From the NCBI GenBank assembly GCA_030628225.1, contig DAOVRJ010000012.1, positions 1 through 18,396 on the forward strand: a DNA stretch of 18,396 nucleotides. The letters run 5' to 3'. Below are positions 8,960-18,396 of the stretch, one piece after another. Source of the stretch: Candidatus Zixiibacteriota bacterium (GTDB taxonomy: Bacteria > SM23-81). Each line of letters opens with the position of its first letter. Within the stretch, counting starts at the first letter, position 1. A program made the translations under genes and the position numbers. Under the pieces are notes generated by a model. The model ran no database searches. It worked only from the letters and a program-made list of their open reading frames with translations, and was not told the DNA's origin.

Positions 8960-9036
<77 letters not shown>

Positions 9037-10149: not shown

Positions 10150-11223
10150 TTATTTTTTAAATACGCCAATTCCCGAGTTATCATCTGATAACGTATAAAT
10201 TGGATCATTAAATTGCGGTCCCCCAGTAAACGGGTCTTTTTCTGGGTATGAATGAGGATCAAGATCTATAAAACTAAAACCGCCCAATCCTGCTGCAATA
10301 TGGACAGATGCACTCTTGGAAAGTACCGATTCAAGCATGCAACCTATCATAAGCCCGATGTTTGCACTACGGGCAATTGCTGCAATATCCAATGCTCCGA
10401 TGATACCAGATTTCATTGTTTTAATATTGATTACATCTGCACAGCCACTTCTAATTACATTAATTGCATCAGCGCTGGTGAATACTGTCTCATCGGCAGC
10501 AACAGGTATAGATGTGTTATCTTTGACAAACTTCATTCCCGGAAGATCATGCTTGACGACGGGCTGCTCGAAAAGGATGGGGCGAATATTGTTTTCTGCT
10601 AAGTTTTCCAAAAAGCGCAGAGCTTCATACGGTGCAAATCCCTGGTTCGCGTCAAGTGTGATCTGGCAATCAGGAGCACCATCTTTTATAGCCAAAATCC
10701 TATCGATATCTTCTTTTGGGTTTTTACCGACTTTTATTTTCAAGATTCTATAACCCTTTTTAGCTAATATTGTTGCGTTTTGTTTCGCCTCATCGGAAGA
10801 AACGATGTCTATAGTGTAATCTGTCTCAATTTCATTTTCCATTCCGCCGAAAAATTGATATAAAGGTATCTTCAATGTTTTAGTAAATGCATCGAGCAAG
10901 GCCATTTCAATGGCGCATAGCGCGGTTATCTGGGGCCAGAAGATATTTTTTACCTGCTTTGAGATCGATCTATAATTCGAGGCGTTTTTTCCAATTAAAA
11001 AATCTTTACAACTGTTTAAAACTGCAAGAACTGTCGCTTGATTTTCACCATTTATAGGCTCCAGCGGTGCTGCTTCGCCATATCCCTCGATGCCATTTTC
11101 TAAGATGATCGTGAGAATTACATTTTCAATGGTGTATTTTGTTCCAATGGCTATAGTAAAAGGTTCTTCTAATTCGATATTTAAGGGTTCAATGGAAACA
11201 TCTTTAATTTTAGTCGATTCCAT
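10150..11223 (-). CDS. dipeptide epimerase, enolase superfamily (L-Ala-D/L-Glu epimerase type)
   Basis: 357 residues, ATG 11223 with GGAGAG six nt upstream. Catalytic residues of the muconate-lactonizing-enzyme/dipeptide epimerase group are all visible: KIKVGK with Lys162/Lys164, metal ligands Asp191 (LDANQG), Glu219 (FEQP) and Asp244 (AADE), and Lys268 (NIKTMKSG). Near the C-terminus FIDLDPH gives the Asp320-x-Asp322 motif, which in dipeptide epimerases holds the substrate amino group; this favours a dipeptide over an N-succinyl amino acid or muconate. L-Ala-D-Glu epimerases act in recycling of peptidoglycan peptides in the cytoplasm, but other dipeptides are used by relatives. The gene overlaps the oxoamine synthase by 14 nt and shares its low GC, so the two arrived and are probably expressed together. 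No peptidase or Mur-ligase partner is nearby. Confidence 0.88.
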   Translation of the reverse strand: MESTKIKDVSIEPLNIELEEPFTIAIGTKYTIENVILTIILENGIEGYGEAAPLEPINGENQATVLAVLNSCKDFLIGKNASNYRSISKQVKNIFWPQITALCAIEMALLDAFTKTLKIPLYQFFGGMENEIETDYTIDIVSSDEAKQNATILAKKGYRILKIKVGKNPKEDIDRILAIKDGAPDCQITLDANQGFAPYEALRFLENLAENNIRPILFEQPVVKHDLPGMKFVKDNTSIPVAADETVFTSADAINVIRSGCADVINIKTMKSGIIGALDIAAIARSANIGLMIGCMLESVLSKSASVHIAAGLGGFSFIDLDPHSYPEKDPFTGGPQFNDPIYTLSDDNSGIGVFKK

Positions 11224-12316
11224 GATTATCTCTCCATTTGTTTAGTGATCTCACTAAATTATTGATTTGATCTTTTGTATGAATGGCGGACACCGTGATT
11301 CTAACAAGGTATTTATTCATTTTTACTGGATACTCAACACAAGGAGCAATGATGTAATTTTCGTATAAATATTGAGATAAACTATTTGCATTCTCTTGGG
11401 AATTGAAAAAGACAGGGATGATCGGGGTATTGTCAATAGTAGTAGCAAAACTCATGTTTCTAATTTTATTTCTGACATATTGGGCATTTTCCAAAACTTT
11501 TACACGGAGTTCGGGGTGCAGCTTCAATTGTTTTATTGATGCAATTCCTGCGGCAACGATAGGTGGGGGTAAAGCAGTTGATCCAAGATAAATAGATGAC
11601 TTTTTTTTAATTTGATTAATGATATTTGCAGAGCCTGAAATAAAACCTCCATAAGCACCTAACGATTTGCTCATCGTTTCGGTTTGAAAAATATTCGCCG
11701 AGTCATCGAGTTGAAAGTGCTGGGGAGTTCCTCTGCCATTTTCTCCAAGTATGCCTGTTGCGTGAGCATCATCTACGACTAAAATAGCATTGTATTTTTG
11801 AGCAATAAGATAAATTTTATCAAGCGGCGCTATTTCACCTGTTAATGCGAAAACGCCGTCTGTGATTATGAGTGGTTTATATTGGCGATTTGTTTTTAAT
11901 AAATCTTCAAGATGCTGCTCGTTACAGTGATCATAAAAAAATGATTTGCAGATTGTTGAAGGAATTCCATCTAAAATGCTAGGATGGGCAGAACTATCTA
12001 TGAAAATGGCAGAAAATTTATCTTGCAGTGCATGAAGAAGTATTTTATTCCCCATATATCCTGAGGCAAAAGTTACAGAATCTTCTTTATTTTTGAACTC
12101 CGATAAAAGTCTTTCCAATTCCAGATGAAGCTCACAAGTACCTGTTGTCCCTCTGGAGGCAGAGAAGCTAAGTCCATATTTTCTGATACACGAGATCACA
12201 TCCTTTTTCAAGGTTGCCTGGTTAGCAAGACCGAGATAATTGTTGCCAGCAAAGTATAGGTAACGCTTATCGTTTACTTTGATTTGGTTTCCTACGCCAC
12301 TTTTTAATATGTGCAT
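11210..12316 (-). CDS. PLP-dependent alpha-oxoamine synthase family (AONS/KBL/ALAS-like) acyltransferase
   Basis: 368 residues, slightly short of the usual 390 or so because the N-terminal arm is missing. The family joins an amino acid and an acyl-CoA with loss of CO2, or does the reverse cleavage. Visible: FAGNNYLGLA at the N-terminus, SASRGTTGT.ELH.ELE (about 52-69), SSAHPSILDG with the PLP-stacking His111, TDGVFALTGEIAPLD, VDDAHATG (Asp182, His185) and the PLP lysine in TETMSKSLGAYGGF (Lys217). STALPPPIVAA follows. Neither substrate can be read from sequence; no biotin (bioA, bioD, bioB) or threonine dehydrogenase gene is near, which argues against a simple BioF or KBL label. It is AT-rich: for example only 17 of the 60 bases 11761-11820 are G or C. 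No strong ribosome site precedes ATG 12316. It is followed with overlap by the dipeptide epimerase. Confidence 0.86.
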   Translation of the reverse strand: MHILKSGVGNQIKVNDKRYLYFAGNNYLGLANQATLKKDVISCIRKYGLSFSASRGTTGTCELHLELERLLSEFKNKEDSVTFASGYMGNKILLHALQDKFSAIFIDSSAHPSILDGIPSTICKSFFYDHCNEQHLEDLLKTNRQYKPLIITDGVFALTGEIAPLDKIYLIAQKYNAILVVDDAHATGILGENGRGTPQHFQLDDSANIFQTETMSKSLGAYGGFISGSANIINQIKKKSSIYLGSTALPPPIVAAGIASIKQLKLHPELRVKVLENAQYVRNKIRNMSFATTIDNTPIIPVFFNSQENANSLSQYLYENYIIAPCVEYPVKMNKYLVRITVSAIHTKDQINNLVRSLNKWRDNHGID

Positions 12317-12460: not shown

Positions 12461-12799
12461 TCATAGATCTGTATATTTGGTCGCTTTCCCCTTCGCTTTA
12501 TGCACAGGATACTTCTCGGCGTTCTGAGCGAGCTTGTCCCTGGCTGCCTCTATAGGATCGAGATCCAATTTGTCGGCCAGATTCAGAAGATAAAGAAGGA
12601 CATCCCCGATCTCCTCGCGAACCTTTCTGAGGGTTTTACCGTTCAAATTTTGGCTCTGTTCCGGCGTCAGCCACTGGAAATGCTCGACCAGCTCTCCGGC
12701 TTCGACCACAAGGGCCATGGCCAGGTTCTTCGGCGTGTGATACTGGCCCCAATCGCGTTCTTTGTTGAAGGATCTGATTAGTTCGATTATTTCATCCAT
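12461..12799 (-). CDS. MazG-like nucleotide pyrophosphohydrolase (dCTPase/RS21-C6 type)
   Basis: 112 residues from ATG 12799, chosen because GGAG lies six nt upstream; the in-frame ATG at 12811 has no such site. The all-alpha NTP-PPase motif is complete: E33AGE36 ... E63EIGD66, the four acidic Mg2+ ligands in an ExxE...ExxD arrangement, with FQWLTPEQ between them as in the dCTPase-like branch. The family cleaves (d)NTPs to NMP and pyrophosphate, either cleaning the nucleotide pool of modified bases or, in relatives, acting in phage defence. The gene starts 18 nt after the stop of the HNH remnant and returns to a higher GC than the oxoamine synthase gene downstream. Confidence 0.86.
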   Translation of the reverse strand: MDEIIELIRSFNKERDWGQYHTPKNLAMALVVEAGELVEHFQWLTPEQSQNLNGKTLRKVREEIGDVLLYLLNLADKLDLDPIEAARDKLAQNAEKYPVHKAKGKATKYTDL

Positions 12800-12817
12800 T
12801 TCTATCTCCATTGTGTG

Positions 12818-13201: not shown

Positions 13202-13234
13202 AAAAGCCTGGAAGAATCTCTCTTCCAGGCTTTT
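13202..13234 (-). terminator. bidirectional terminator ending the redox operon
   Basis: Perfect 14-bp stem AAAAGCCTGGAAGA (13202-13215) / TCTTCCAGGCTTTT (13221-13234) with a 5-nt loop. T-runs are present on both sides, so it works in both directions. For the leftward redox operon it lies about 100 nt after the GltB-like stop. It also insulates the accessory genes to the left. Confidence 0.9.
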
Positions 13235-13335: not shown

Positions 13336-14916
13336 TCAGGAGTTGAGTATTTTTTCAGCTTCCTCTTTGTCGGCATCCATGTCATAAGCAATGCCGCTTA
13401 TCTCAGCCGCCTCGTGTGTTAAGGAGACGATGTCATCCCGGGTGATGTGTTCCAGCGCAAATTTCCTGGCACCGCACATCAACTGCTTGACCCCCTGCTC
13501 AAGACGCGTCATATAAGTGTAGAGCCCGAGAGCACCAGAAGGGATTTTTTGGAAATCTGCACCATATTTTTGCTTGAGCTCAGGTGCTGTGATAAATGTT
13601 TCCTCTATCGTGTTGCCAAACCTCTCAATATAGACAGGCGTTGAGCCCTCTTCGATCCTCTTGCCGATATTTTTCCCTACCATAGCGGCGGCAAGTGGTC
13701 CCCTGGCCATGCCGATCAATTTGAAGTAAGGAGCGCCCAGGGCGAGTCCCTTGAAGATATGATCCTCCAGAACAGATCCGCCGGCAATCGCGATATCTGG
13801 AATATGCTTACCTTTCTTGGCCAGCTTGTCTAGGTAACGGTAAAGCAGCGACCAGAGCTCCACGCCGGGAACACCCCATTCGCACATCATCCGCCATGGA
13901 CTCATGCCGGTTCCGCCGCCCGCACCATCAACGGTCAGCAAGTCGATCTTCGCCTCGGAGCTCCACTTCACAGCACGAGCAAGGTCGCTGGGTCTATAGG
14001 CGCCCGTTTTCAGGAATACATACTTTGCGCCCGCCTTGCGCAGCTCTTCAGCTCGTGCGTAAAAGGCCTCTTCCTCTGCCATGCCTATCCTCGAATGGCG
14101 CTCAAATTCGTGAAAAGCGCGCCGCTCAAAGGCAGCGATCACGTTCTTATCGTGCGGATCCGGCAGAACCACATATCCTCTATCTTTCAACATCTGGGCG
14201 CGTTTAAGATCCTTTATCTTTACCTCGCCCCCGATATCCTTTGCGCCCTGACCCCATTTCATCTCTGCCACCTCAACGCCGAGCTTTTCGATCACATACT
14301 CCTGCACGCCGAGCCTGGTATCCTCTACATTTGCCTGCACGACGATGGTGCCATAACCATCCTGTTGCCATTCTTTGAAAAGCCTGATTCGCCTCTCCAT
14401 TTCAGGGGAGCGAACGATCCGGCCATTTTTGATTTCGCTCGCTGAGTCCATACCGCAGACATTCTCACCAACTGTGAGGATGATGCCTGATAGCGCAGCA
14501 CCAATAGCCAGCCCTTCCCAGTTGTTTTTGGCGATAGCGGTCGAACCCAGCCCGGGAATAACAATGGGTAATCTTAGCTTTATGCCTTTATCGTGTCCTA
14601 TTCTTTGTTCTAAATTCACTTTGGGGAATATCGCCTTGTCCGAGTCGGCTTCTATCCCGTAAGCGCCTCTGCACGAGCCAAGGATGTTGAAATGTGAGAG
14701 ATCAACGGGATATTCCTTCTGTCCTGCCGAGGTAATTATCCCAAAAGGCTGAGGATAGATGGCTTCTGTGCCCCGGTAGGCGGATTTGCCGATTTCACAC
14801 ATGCCGATGCAGCCGTCCACACAGGTCGCGCACATTCCACTTATCGGGACGATGGAATCTTCTGTCCTGTTCTTCGTTAATGTCGCCGCTGTTGCGTTTA
14901 TTTTTGTTAAGCTCAT
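13336..14916 (-). CDS. FMN-binding glutamate synthase (GltB) central-domain protein with N-terminal Cys motif
   Basis: 526 residues, ATG 14916 after AAGGAGGC. The body matches the FMN-binding synthase domain of glutamate synthase: LRLPIVIPGLGSTAI, LTVGENVCGMD, VEVAEMKWGQGAKDIGGEVK, LLTVDGAGGGTGMSPW and IAIAGGSVLEDHIFKGLALGA are visible in order. There is no glutaminase domain or N-terminal nucleophile Cys, so ammonia transfer would need another subunit. The 3Fe-4S motif of classical GltB (Cys...CH.N.CP after the ALGA region) is absent; the matching stretch reads MARGPLAAAMVGKNIG. Instead residues 29-40 have C-x2-C-x3-C-x3-C (CATCVDGCIGMC), a likely Fe-S site. It is the last large gene of the redox operon. 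It could be an archaeal-type split glutamate synthase subunit or an FMN redox subunit with another job. Confidence 0.85.
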   Translation of the reverse strand: MSLTKINATAATLTKNRTEDSIVPISGMCATCVDGCIGMCEIGKSAYRGTEAIYPQPFGIITSAGQKEYPVDLSHFNILGSCRGAYGIEADSDKAIFPKVNLEQRIGHDKGIKLRLPIVIPGLGSTAIAKNNWEGLAIGAALSGIILTVGENVCGMDSASEIKNGRIVRSPEMERRIRLFKEWQQDGYGTIVVQANVEDTRLGVQEYVIEKLGVEVAEMKWGQGAKDIGGEVKIKDLKRAQMLKDRGYVVLPDPHDKNVIAAFERRAFHEFERHSRIGMAEEEAFYARAEELRKAGAKYVFLKTGAYRPSDLARAVKWSSEAKIDLLTVDGAGGGTGMSPWRMMCEWGVPGVELWSLLYRYLDKLAKKGKHIPDIAIAGGSVLEDHIFKGLALGAPYFKLIGMARGPLAAAMVGKNIGKRIEEGSTPVYIERFGNTIEETFITAPELKQKYGADFQKIPSGALGLYTYMTRLEQGVKQLMCGARKFALEHITRDDIVSLTHEAAEISGIAYDMDADKEEAEKILNS

Positions 14917-14941
14917 TTTTGAAGCCTCCTTTTTTGAGCCT

Positions 14942-15026
14942 ACAGCGTACAGTCAACAGCGTACTATTATTAGCTGTTAGCTGTTAGCTGTCAGCTGTTA
15001 GCTGTCTGCTGTTAGCTGTCAGCTGT
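14942..15026. repeat. heptanucleotide tandem array, 8 units of TAGCTGT type, with degenerate flank
   Basis: 14971-15026 splits exactly into eight 7-mers on the plus strand: TAGCTGT three times, CAGCTGT, TAGCTGT, CTGCTGT, TAGCTGT, CAGCTGT. Left of it, ACAGCGTAC occurs twice 14 nt apart (14942-14950 and 14956-14964), suggesting an older degenerate part of the same 7-nt periodicity. The array fills most of the gap between the Fe-S subunit and the GltB-like gene, and its right end lies inside the Fe-S gene: the stop codon at 15019-15021 is formed by array sequence. Units contain the palindrome AGCT, so the RNA could form several short hairpins. Confidence 0.92.
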
Positions 15027-15702
15027 CTTCCTTCACGCACGTTCCGCATTCACCTTTCAAACCCATCCAGCAAGCGTAGTTGTCATAAACATCAAGGCAG
15101 GTGGGCTGAAGGCTGTTTTCACATCTGCCGCATATCACATTTTCTGCTTTTGCGCCCTCGCACCGTAAATTGCATACAGGACAGATGTACATACAACCAC
15201 CGCACCTCCTGCAGTCCTCCGAAGTTTTATCAAATGGAGTGGATATTTTTAGTTTGCTCCCCCGATCGATAAACCCGATGGCTTTTGCCATCATCTGTTC
15301 TTCACACATCCGCACGCACAGCCCGCAATAGATGCAATCTTCCCATTTGGGCTTGAACCTGATCCGCGTCAGGCCCATCTTCGCTGCCAGATCTTGCAGC
15401 GTCTTAGATGTGGGGCACTGCGCGATCAACAACTCGAGGATCATCTTCCTCGATTCCACGACCCGTTTCGTTGCCGTGCGGACTTTTAGTCCTTCTTCGA
15501 CAGGATATGTGCATGAGGTCACTAACTTAGCTTTTTGGCCTTCTCCTATCTCGACGAGACATAAACGGCAACCGCCCCAGGCTGAAAGTCCCTCGCGGTA
15601 GCAAAGCGTGGGGATGTCTATCCCCAGGAACTTTGCGGCATCGAGTATTGTCCAGCCCTCCCGGGCATCAATCTCAATTCCATCGATCTTTATTTTAGGC
15701 AT
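15019..15702 (-). CDS. iron-sulfur subunit: 2Fe-2S (NuoG/HoxU-like N-terminus), two 4Fe-4S motifs and Cys-rich tail
   Basis: 227 residues. The ATG directly follows the stop of the NuoF/GltD fusion (TAAATG), with AGGAGG inside the end of that gene, so the two are coupled. Residues 1-80 are a 2Fe-2S ferredoxin domain with Cys34, Cys45, Cys48 and Cys64. The RKMILELL..LQDLA segment (86-106) is like NuoG/HoxU, but the His-Cys ligands that normally follow it are absent. Then come two 4Fe-4S motifs: Cys123/126/129/133 and Cys164/167/170/174. Residues 177-222 add eight more cysteines (177, 181, 191, 194, 202, 211, 219, 222), not usual in this family. The protein should pass electrons between the NuoF module and another partner. 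A hydrogenase or formate dehydrogenase catalytic domain is not attached. Confidence 0.87.
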   Translation of the reverse strand: MPKIKIDGIEIDAREGWTILDAAKFLGIDIPTLCYREGLSAWGGCRLCLVEIGEGQKAKLVTSCTYPVEEGLKVRTATKRVVESRKMILELLIAQCPTSKTLQDLAAKMGLTRIRFKPKWEDCIYCGLCVRMCEEQMMAKAIGFIDRGSKLKISTPFDKTSEDCRRCGGCMYICPVCNLRCEGAKAENVICGRCENSLQPTCLDVYDNYACWMGLKGECGTCVKEDS

Positions 15703-18396
15703 TTATGCCTCCTGTTCGACCAAGGAACCTTCTTTGAGTTTTTCTAAGAACCTCTGCCCATCTTCTGTCTCAAGCTCGCATCGCAGACATCTTTTTGCTT
15801 CTTTTATTGCCTGCTCTTCCGTTAAGCCCTGGTCGACTTCTTGGAAATTAGACTTTCTCTCTGCAGGAGACAACTGGGCCATTGCTGGTCGCTTTGCTGT
15901 TAATAGTTCCTCAAGCTCCTCATCGGAAAGCTCGAGGGGCTCTATGTACTTTGAGGGTCTTGTTAACTTGTATTCGCGCTTTATTTCTTCTCCCCGTAAA
16001 AATTTATCAATAGATTCAGCAGCAATCTTGCCAGATGCGACTGCATCAACGACAGTGTTGGGTCCCGTTACCAAATCGCCACCTGCGAAAACGCCGTCTC
16101 TATCTGTAGTAAACGTTTCCTGGTCAGCGACAAGCGTTCCTCTGCGAGAGACCTTCAGTCCGGAGTCCTCTTGAATGAAAGAGACATCGGGCTGCTCCCC
16201 GATGGCCACGATCAAAGTGTCAAGTTTTACCTCAAATTCTGAGCCTTCGATAGGAACAGGTCTTTTTCTGCCGGATTCGTCCACCTTGCCCAGTTTCATC
16301 CGCATAAATTCACAGGTTTTCAATTTTCCATTCTCAGCAATTACTTTTTTCGGTGTGACCAGGAACTCGATCTTGATTCCTTCTCCGATAGCTGCTTCGA
16401 CTTCCTCTTCGTATGCCGGCATCTCGGCAATTGTCCTTCTATAGAAGATGGTCACATTTTCAGGCATTCCAGTGCGCAATACTGCTCGGGCAGCATCTAC
16501 GGCTGAATTTCCTCCTCCGATCACTCCAACATTCTTGCCGATTTTTATTTCCTGGCCAAGGTTTATGGATGTTAGCACTTGCATGCCAGGCAGGACACCT
16601 TCGACATCCTCGCCAGGCATATTCAACTTCCACGACTTATGGGCACCACTGGCAAGAAACATCGCTTTATAACCCTGCTTAAATAAACTGTCTATAGTAA
16701 AATCTTTGCCGAGTGTTTTATTAGTTTGAATCTTAACACCTGAGCTTTTAATGAAGTCGATATCAGTCTTTAATATTTTTCTAGGCAGCCTGTATTCCGG
16801 TATTGCTACGGCAAGCATGCCTCCGATAACGGGTAATTTCTCGAATATGTCAACCGCATAACCCTTCTGGGCAAGATAAAACCCGCAGGTTAAGCCAGCC
16901 GGTCCGGAGCCGATTATTGCTATTTTGCCCTGTTTGTTTTTCGCTACTGATTCTATTTTGAGGGCGAGATTGTTCCTCAAGCCATAATCAGTCGCAAACC
17001 TTTTCAGATCTCTGATGGCAATGGGATCTCCGCCCTCACCTGCTCGACACTTTGCTTCACAGGGATGGTTGCATACGCGAGCGAGAACAGAGGCTAAAGG
17101 ATTATCCTTTTTAATGATCTGCAGAGCCTCAGCATATTTCTTCCTGGCGATTAAAGAAATGTAAACCGAGGCTTCTGTGTCTATTGGACAAGTATGTTGG
17201 CAGGCCGAAGAGATTATCTCTTGACATACCGCCGCTGTGCATCTCTTTTTTGTAATATGATCGATGTATTCGTTCCTGAAATGGTGAAGAGTTGCCAGGA
17301 CAGGATTTGGCGCCGTTTGACCGAGCCCGCAGAGGGAAGTTTCTTTTATCACAACTCCTAATTCCTCAAGGAGGTTGAGATCTTCCTCCGTTCCCTTACC
17401 TGTAGTGATATCGGTGAGTATTTCGAACATGCGCTGGGTGCCTTCCCTGCAGGGAACACATTTGCCGCAGGATTCATCCTTAAGGAAATTGATGAAATAC
17501 TTGGCCACATCGACCATGCAGGTATTCTCGTCCATGACGATCATACCGCCAGAACCCATCATTGAGCCCACTTCGGTTAATCGTTCATAATCGATAGGTA
17601 AGTCGAGTAACTCCTTAGGGATGCAACCTCCTGAAGGTCCACCTGTCTGAACAGCTTTGAATTTACGATTTTTAGGAATCCCCCCGCCGATATCATAAAT
17701 AATTTCCCGGAGAGGCATACCCATTGGAACCTCAACCAAACCGGTGTTATTTATTTTACCAACAAGGGAGAATATCTTTGTGCCTTTGCTTGTCTCCGTT
17801 CCGATGCTGGCAAACCAGTCGGCTCCCTTATTAATGATTTGGGGCACGTTTGCCCAGGTCTCAACATTATTGATTACCGTTGGCTTGCCCCAAAGTCCTT
17901 TCCTGACCGGAAAAGGTGGTCTTTGTTTGGGAACTCCTCTGGAGCCCTCTATGGATTGAATGAGAGCGGTTTCCTCGCCACAGACAAAGGCACCGGCACC
18001 TTTTATGATTTTAATATCGAAACTGAATCCCGAACCAAGTATGTTTTCACCTAACAAACCAAGTTTCTTCGCCTGTTCGATGGCCATGGATATATGTTTG
18101 ACAGCCAGTGGATATTCTTCGCGTACATAAATCCAGCCTTGGCAGGCACCTATTGCATACGCTCCCAGTATCATTCCTTCAATAACGCTATGCGGATTGC
18201 CCTCCAGAAGACTCCTGTCCATGTAAGCGCCTGGATCGCCCTCATCGGCGTTGCAAATTACATATTTAGGCTCGCCCTTCGCTTTTCTGCAAAAATCCCA
18301 TTTGAATCCAGTGGGAAATCCGGCTCCCCCTCTGCCCCTTAACTGAGATTTTTTGATGACCTGGATAACTTCCTCAGAAGCCATTTTGCTTATTGC
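15703..18396 (-). CDS. NuoF-like NADH module fused to GltD/NfnB-like NADPH module (5' end outside window)
   Basis: 897 residues are visible and the frame is still open at 18396; family alignment places ATG 18384 inside the domain, so the true start lies beyond the edge. Numbering from that Met: [11 protein letters not shown] (16-26) binds [18 protein letters not shown] (129-142) belongs to the FMN site, and SCGKCVPC (305-312) with Cys352 forms the N3-type 4Fe-4S cluster of NuoF. The second half is GltD-like: Fe-S cysteines at 395, 399, 438, 442 and 446, FAD Rossmann motif GSGPAG (492-497), NAD(P)H motif GGGNSA (623-628), YRRT.AEMPA (648-657) and [19 protein letters not shown] (767-785). One chain thus has two pyridine nucleotide sites and two flavins. 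It precedes the Fe-S subunit and GltB-like genes in the same operon. Confidence 0.9.

Follow-up and report, generated by a model that had tools for sequence, protein, structure and literature searches.

The electron-bifurcating enzymes of the Bfu/HydABC type can be recognised by their BfuB (HydB) subunit. Its marks are a B2 cluster with the ligands C438, C476 or Thr, H525, C531 and C536, together with residues such as A202 and M204, and the B2 ligand His and the GDPGAxM residues are reported to be absent from non-bifurcating homologues (PMC9304861). Variants on this plan have been described. In the BfuB of sub-type I [FeFe]-hydrogenases the B3/B4 domain is replaced by DPD_II and a flavin adenine dinucleotide (FAD) domain, and a possible second bifurcating centre was suggested (PMC11406978). 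The FAD of StnC, judged by structure and mutants, does not bifurcate (PMC10482914). Could such a core also serve amino-acid chemistry? Here we analyse an 18,396-bp stretch of DNA from Candidatus Zixiibacteriota bacterium, hereafter the window, in which a HydB-GltD fusion, a short BfuA-like iron-sulphur (Fe-S) subunit and a GltB2-like flavin mononucleotide (FMN) protein are encoded side by side. Our preferred reading, to which we give a probability of roughly 0.45, is a Bfu-type complex that would couple NAD(H) and NADP(H), or ferredoxin in sister enzymes, to amino-acid/2-oxo-acid chemistry, probably that of glutamate. A literature search for the same module combination, or for a bifurcating glutamate enzyme, found no description, subscription papers and supplements lying outside the search.

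The gene set and its distribution

The composition and order of the set can be read directly from the sequence. A first-pass annotation of the window had described three adjacent leftward genes, coding for a NuoF-GltD fusion, a multi-cluster Fe-S subunit and a GltB-type FMN protein, ahead of one terminator; open reading frames, Pfam domains and a 15-bp stem agree with it. The first gene (15703..18396, minus strand; 897 aa read, open at the window end) codes for the BfuB/HydB-GltD fusion, with the Pfam domains Complex1_51K, SLBB and NADH_4Fe-4S, then Fer4_20 and Pyr_redox_2. The second (15019..15702, minus strand; 227 aa) codes for a short Fe-S subunit resembling BfuA, the N-terminal part of NuoG and HoxU, with Fer2_4 and a Fer4 dicluster. 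The third (13336..14916, minus strand; 526 aa) codes for the GltB2-like FMN TIM-barrel protein, the candidate third-substrate module, and an intrinsic terminator with a 15-pair stem and a T tract (13202..13234, minus strand) lies about 100 bp past the last stop. The set joins NADH (NuoF/HydB), NADPH (GltD), Fe-S and FMN output modules, as that annotation had proposed, and it bears the sequence marks of a HydBC bifurcating core.

The window is the entire contig C220 (18396 of 18396 bp), upstream sequence being unreadable in this assembly, and the contig end cuts the 5' end of the HydB-GltD gene. Relatives of the fusion protein are about 1055 aa long, with about 160 extra N-terminal residues; the ATG at 18384 is therefore internal to the gene and not its start. 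In the relatives a HydC/NuoE gene stands upstream of HydB(-GltD), a place that in the window falls beyond the contig end. In the window's own genome a single NuoE-type gene was found, next to a separate cluster of HydABC-like genes (contig C228), so HydC of the GltB2 operon is either unassembled or absent. This second cluster (G000:C228, loci L003 and L109) is a canonical HydC-HydB-HydA-like one with Fe-S genes, and its HydB of 634 aa has a ferredoxin domain.

Is the arrangement found elsewhere? A contig scan with the 526-aa GltB2-like protein gave 554 relatives, and the locus counts given here cover the 80 that were fetched. These belong to many bacterial and archaeal phyla, namely Aminicenantes, WOR-3, Stahlbacteria, Zixibacteria, TA06, Acidobacteriota, Bipolaricaulota, Bacteroidota, Planctomycetota, Clostridia and several archaea, and the map of conservation drawn from them has a recurrent order, most commonly HydC - HydB(-GltD) - short BfuA-like Fe-S - GltB2. 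The Fe-S gene lies no more than two genes from GltB2 in 68 of the 78 cases where GltB2 has an upstream gene, and HydC is present at 47 of the 56 HydB genes with room upstream. Such counts indicate that the gene arrangement is not due to chance. A four-Cys pattern is found in all HydC-type proteins of the relatives' loci (55/55). The set is common in uncultured anaerobes, including Aminicenantes, WOR-3, Zixibacteria, Bipolaricaulota, anaerobic methanotrophic archaea (ANME) and other archaea, while the more distant GltB2-like relatives (38-60% identity) are stand-alone genes.

Some loci depart from the common order. At L052 (2910-11581) a fused HydB-GltD and then a second, distant HydB with a ferredoxin domain and two BfuA-like genes stand in tandem ahead of a single GltB2. 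A small protein resembling a double zinc ribbon (135 aa; L035:5592-5999) is encoded between HydC and HydB, where L036, L043 and L094 have genes of similar size. HydC does not adjoin HydB in some WOR-3/Stahlbacteria loci (L066, L080, L101, L104, L106), and in L080, L101 and L106 the two are separated by a block of genes resembling the neighbours of hydrogenase clusters. In Peptoclostridium acidaminophilum, an amino-acid fermenter, a stand-alone "glutamate synthase-related protein" of 37% identity adjoins a gene for an FMN-binding protein (L112:7533-9521).

The HydB core and its exchangeable module

To which known protein is the HydB core nearest? For the core of a close relative, L029, the best PDB match is HydB of a bifurcating NiFe-hydrogenase (7t2r_B, 690 bits), above complex I subunits. 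In the window protein the motif H-x5-C-x4-C (H380, C386, C391; 17224..17259, minus strand) aligns with the B2 [2Fe-2S] ligands H525, C531 and C536 of 7t2r_B. Every aligned bifurcating-BfuB position that was checked is retained: the equivalents of C438, H525, C531 and C536 are kept, and the position of C476 is Thr, as in FeFe enzymes. Note that H-x5-C-x4-C occurs in 66 of 66 HydB-type proteins and GDPGA(Y/F)M in 65 of them. The window protein also has the NuoF FMN, SLBB and NuoF 4Fe-4S domains of a BfuB, and the 227-aa protein has the [2Fe-2S] and 4Fe-4S dicluster domains of a BfuA. The latter contains one [2Fe-2S] and two [4Fe-4S] sites, with no typical His-ligated NuoG cluster, and in this it appears to resemble Type 2 BfuA. 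Its 12 ligand Cys, as well as C181, C191, C194 and C202, are invariant among 26 members of its family, and the Cys-rich C-terminal part formed by the last four is peculiar to that family.

Following the core, the fusion has a GltD-like FAD/NADPH domain (15706..17223, minus strand) with two [4Fe-4S] sites and a C-terminal RCLRC pair as in StnC, at the place of the HydB C-terminal ferredoxin domain. This domain scores 409, 398 and 336 bits against StnC-type proteins; for NfnB the scores are 322 and 318, and true GltD reaches 189. K465, in the motif DLKRF (17002..17004, minus strand), corresponds to K170 of StnC, which lies at the FAD-proximal [4Fe-4S] cluster and is Glu in NfnB, and its counterpart (K624) is invariant among fused proteins (25/25). 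With a StnC-like lysine instead of the NfnB glutamate, and given the findings on StnC (PMC10482914), the GltD FAD is probably not bifurcating. Electron bifurcation, which the first-pass annotation had considered, is in keeping with the marks of the core, while the GltD FAD is disfavoured as its site; by sequence, the likely place for it is the HydB FMN/Fe-S centre.

How did the GltD module come to the core? Thirty-four HydB proteins, that of the window included, run on into GltD at the same point where 31 sister proteins have, and end in, a two-cluster ferredoxin domain with eight Cys columns. The B1 and B2 Cys columns are invariant or almost so in both forms alike. A maximum-likelihood tree built from the HydB core has the two states interleaved, with 13 changes, at least 12 of them forced by well-supported branches; all of 500 shuffles gave more changes. 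Sister pairs of opposite state include L029/L030 and L048/L079. The distances between GltD domains are only partly correlated with those between HydB cores (Spearman 0.63). A single origin of the HydB-GltD fusion is thus not what the tree shows, and the changes may reflect either repeated gain or repeated loss of GltD. With at least 12 switches between a ferredoxin and an NADPH module on the same core, nature provides a comparative series on the cofactor that the low-potential branch requires.

The GltB2-like subunit and its possible substrate

The match of the 526-aa protein to PF01645 (Glu_synthase) is weak, at 46.6 bits. A profile comparison with GltB2-type proteins gives a probability of 99 and an E value of 3.6e-18 over most of the length. 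An AlphaFold2 model, with a mean predicted local distance difference test (pLDDT) score of 81.7, is a TIM barrel of the FMN hydroxyacid-oxidase type (Z about 25). Foldseek places glutamate synthase (1ofd) at rank 35 and the top 50 rows of VIA-align are without glutamate synthase, which is no evidence against kinship. A PDB profile search with the GltB2 alignment matched designed TIM barrels only, which were judged spurious, and there is no NCBIfam model for the protein. Two signatures typical of the glutamate synthase branch have been kept. QGAK (residues 223-226; 14239..14250, minus strand), common to the glutamate synthase FMN site, is invariant in 33 proteins and aligned with GltB2-type proteins and glutamate synthase; the other is DGxGGGTG. 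Judged from the alignments, the protein is a real though divergent relative of the glutamate synthase FMN domain. It has in addition a new N-terminal motif, C-x2-C-x3-C-x3-C (C29, C32, C36, C40; 14797..14832, minus strand), invariant in 33 of 33, which is likely a [4Fe-4S] entry site.

Is there any sign of a role in glutamate metabolism? About 18 of the 80 loci, in several phyla, contain glutamate dehydrogenase genes, while about 1% would be expected by an estimate from gene number and genome size. In L090, for example, the glutamate dehydrogenase gene follows GltB2 directly, its frame sharing 4 bp with the GltB2 end; it likewise lies directly downstream in L037, with a gap of 22 bp, and in L078. 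Glutamine synthetase is found in 13 of the 80 loci, and two glutamine synthetase genes are present in the window's own genome. No convincing glutamate dehydrogenase was found there, the only candidate being a partial ELFV_dehydrog match of 25 bits. Among four genomes of the same phylum, a small sample, the two with intact GltB2 are without glutamate dehydrogenase and the two without intact GltB2 have it. In one of the latter two, at L028:9180-9560 (G002:C48), an 83-residue 3' remnant of GltB2 lies about 40 bp past an intact gene for glutamate dehydrogenase, as though a deletion had taken out the operon next to it. At another locus, L081 (661-4492), glutamate dehydrogenase stands directly ahead of the Fe-S and GltB2 genes, at the expected place of HydB. 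The conservation of the GltB2 subunit, together with the associated glutamate dehydrogenase and glutamine synthetase genes, makes a plain NADH:NADPH transhydrogenase, which had been suggested at first, less likely.

From this composition we infer how the predicted complex may assemble, its electron path, its substrate and its direction, in bifurcation or in confurcation. It would be a soluble HydABC/Bfu-type complex made up of HydC (off the contig), HydB and the short BfuA, in which an FMN barrel of the glutamate synthase type handles the third substrate. NAD(H) would exchange electrons with the HydB FMN and the surrounding clusters, the fused GltD module would take over the ferredoxin branch by exchanging electrons with NADP(H), and BfuA would connect the HydB core to the GltB2-like FMN. 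There a 2-oxo acid and ammonia would most likely be interconverted with an amino acid, probably 2-oxoglutarate with glutamate. The net action would be a coupled transfer among NAD(H), NADP(H) (ferredoxin in the sister enzymes) and glutamate formation. A possible logic, its energetics being unsettled, is that exergonic NADH-driven glutamate formation pays for the reduction of NADP+ or ferredoxin. We hold it possible, if doubtful, that the enzyme is a bifurcating one in the full sense with an amino acid as third substrate, the GltB2 flavin carrying out ammonia-dependent glutamate formation or oxidation, the HydBC-type core reacting with NADH and the exchangeable module with ferredoxin or NADP(H). 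An enzyme of that kind would tie energy conservation directly to the assimilation of nitrogen.

Several points weigh against the preferred reading and should be noticed. The 2-oxoglutarate/glutamate couple, at about -0.12 V, is far more positive than NADH, and a gain from bifurcation is doubtful unless glutamate formation drives the reduction of NADP+ or ferredoxin. The N-terminal B5 site of HydB has three Cys conserved or partly so, not four. The full-length HydB-GltD model has confident domains (pLDDT 81), with a predicted TM-score of 0.54 and a low-confidence joint at 552-557, and it yields no cluster distances. The own genome is 92% complete, which makes gene absences in it provisional, and several other genomes with the gene set also carry glutamate dehydrogenase, so that the two may differ in role. 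The GltB2-like protein lacks the [3Fe-4S] cysteines of glutamate synthase, C29, C32, C36 and C40 being the only invariant Cys among the 33. Finally, E231 is invariant, at a position that is His in archaeal-type GltB2; next to the GltS lysine, it is presumably Q978 in the numbering of Azospirillum glutamate synthase. With an invariant Glu where glutamate synthases have Gln or His, the assignment of glutamate as the substrate is only tentative, and the substrate may differ.

What else could the gene set encode? The alternative that survives best, still a doubtful one, keeps the same complex and gives the GltB2-like barrel a substrate other than glutamate, such as another amino acid, a 2-hydroxy acid or a small-molecule acceptor, with glutamate dehydrogenase as a partner and not an equivalent. 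E231 and the lost [3Fe-4S] site speak for it, and so do the fit of the GltB2 model to FMN 2-hydroxyacid oxidases as well, the operon shared with glutamate dehydrogenase in some genomes and the distant stand-alone homologues in amino-acid fermenters. The retention of QGAK and DGxGGGTG argues the other way, as do glutamine synthetase and glutamate dehydrogenase as recurrent neighbours. We regard as unlikely a non-bifurcating, NAD(P)H-dependent and ammonia-using glutamate synthase or reductase, in which HydB and GltD would simply be two alternative ways for electrons to reach the GltB2 FMN. Either nucleotide, NADH or NADPH, makes glutamate formation exergonic, and the window branch is missing the ferredoxin domain that serves one partner of known Bfu enzymes. 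However, the full Bfu core with this domain is found in sister loci whose BfuA and GltB2 are the same, and the B2 His and GDPGAxM are kept, although non-bifurcating homologues are reported to lack them (PMC9304861). A split glutamate synthase of the ordinary kind, with its GltB1 and GltB3 genes at other loci, of which adjoining glutaminase and GltB3 genes had been named as the sign, is suggested by the PF01645 and GltD domains but is largely refuted and highly improbable, as no GATase_2 (glutaminase) or GXGXG (GltB3) domain was found in the own genome, GXGXG was not found in 7 of 9 tested genomes bearing the set nor GltB3 in the four same-phylum genomes, the [3Fe-4S] Cys are missing and GltD is fused to HydB.

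If the preferred reading holds, the range of bifurcation-type cores would widen to include amino-acid chemistry. The set would also be a candidate glutamate-forming route for genomes in which no glutamate synthase and no glutamate dehydrogenase was found.

Other genes of the window lie beyond the operon. A gene for a MazG-like protein (12461-12811) is just past the terminator region. Farther on, a gene like that of 8-amino-7-oxononanoate synthase/glycine C-acetyltransferase overlaps one like that of L-Ala-D/L-Glu epimerase (10150-12316), and there is a gene for tRNA-Met (cat) at 8960-9036.

Comparison with known systems

With glutamate synthase (GltB/GltD and the archaeal split GltB2) the set shares a GltD-type domain and an FMN barrel with QGAK, but it is without the glutaminase, GltB3 and the [3Fe-4S] cysteines, and has HydB and BfuA in addition. 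With NfnAB it shares the GltD-like NADPH domain; it differs by the HydB core and by Lys465, not Glu, at the proximal cluster, and no NfnA-type subunit is in the conserved gene set. Stn of Sporomusa ovata and Nfn-Bfu of Thermococcus sibiricus (PMC7483475, PMC10482914, PMC9304861) are closer, having a HydBC-type core and a StnC-like GltD with the proximal-cluster lysine and the permuted C-terminal Cys pair. In Stn, however, GltD lies within the NuoG-like StnC, the ferredoxin domain is kept in StnB and there is no GltB2, whereas the window GltD is fused to HydB.

A HydB-GltD fusion is itself not new, as it was published in 2024 for [FeFe]-hydrogenases (PMC11406978). In the sub-type I BfuABC [FeFe]-hydrogenase of Hydrogenedentota, B3/B4 of HydB are likewise replaced by DPD_II and an FAD/NAD(P)-binding domain; its BfuA bears the H-cluster, while the window BfuA of 227 aa has no hydrogenase domain and is followed by GltB2 (PMC11406978). 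The complex had been called possibly undescribed in the first-pass annotation, and this appears to hold for the full combination, not for HydB with DPD_II and FAD.

The Bfu family (PMC9304861) shares with the window the HydB FMN core with its B1 and B2 ligands, HydC (in relatives), and a BfuA with one [2Fe-2S] and two [4Fe-4S] clusters in which no A3-type His cluster was seen. As in Bfu Type 2, the third substrate would be served by an extra subunit. The differences are that the window HydB has GltD for the ferredoxin domain and that the third module is GltB2-like, a kind with no corresponding type among those named in PMC9304861. The 4Fe-4S ferredoxin domain of BfuB (IPR017896; B3/B4) is absent from the window protein, but 31 sister loci that share the BfuA/GltB2 pair have it. 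The window enzyme is therefore classed as Bfu-like and not as a strict Bfu member, while the sister loci carry the family features that were tested.

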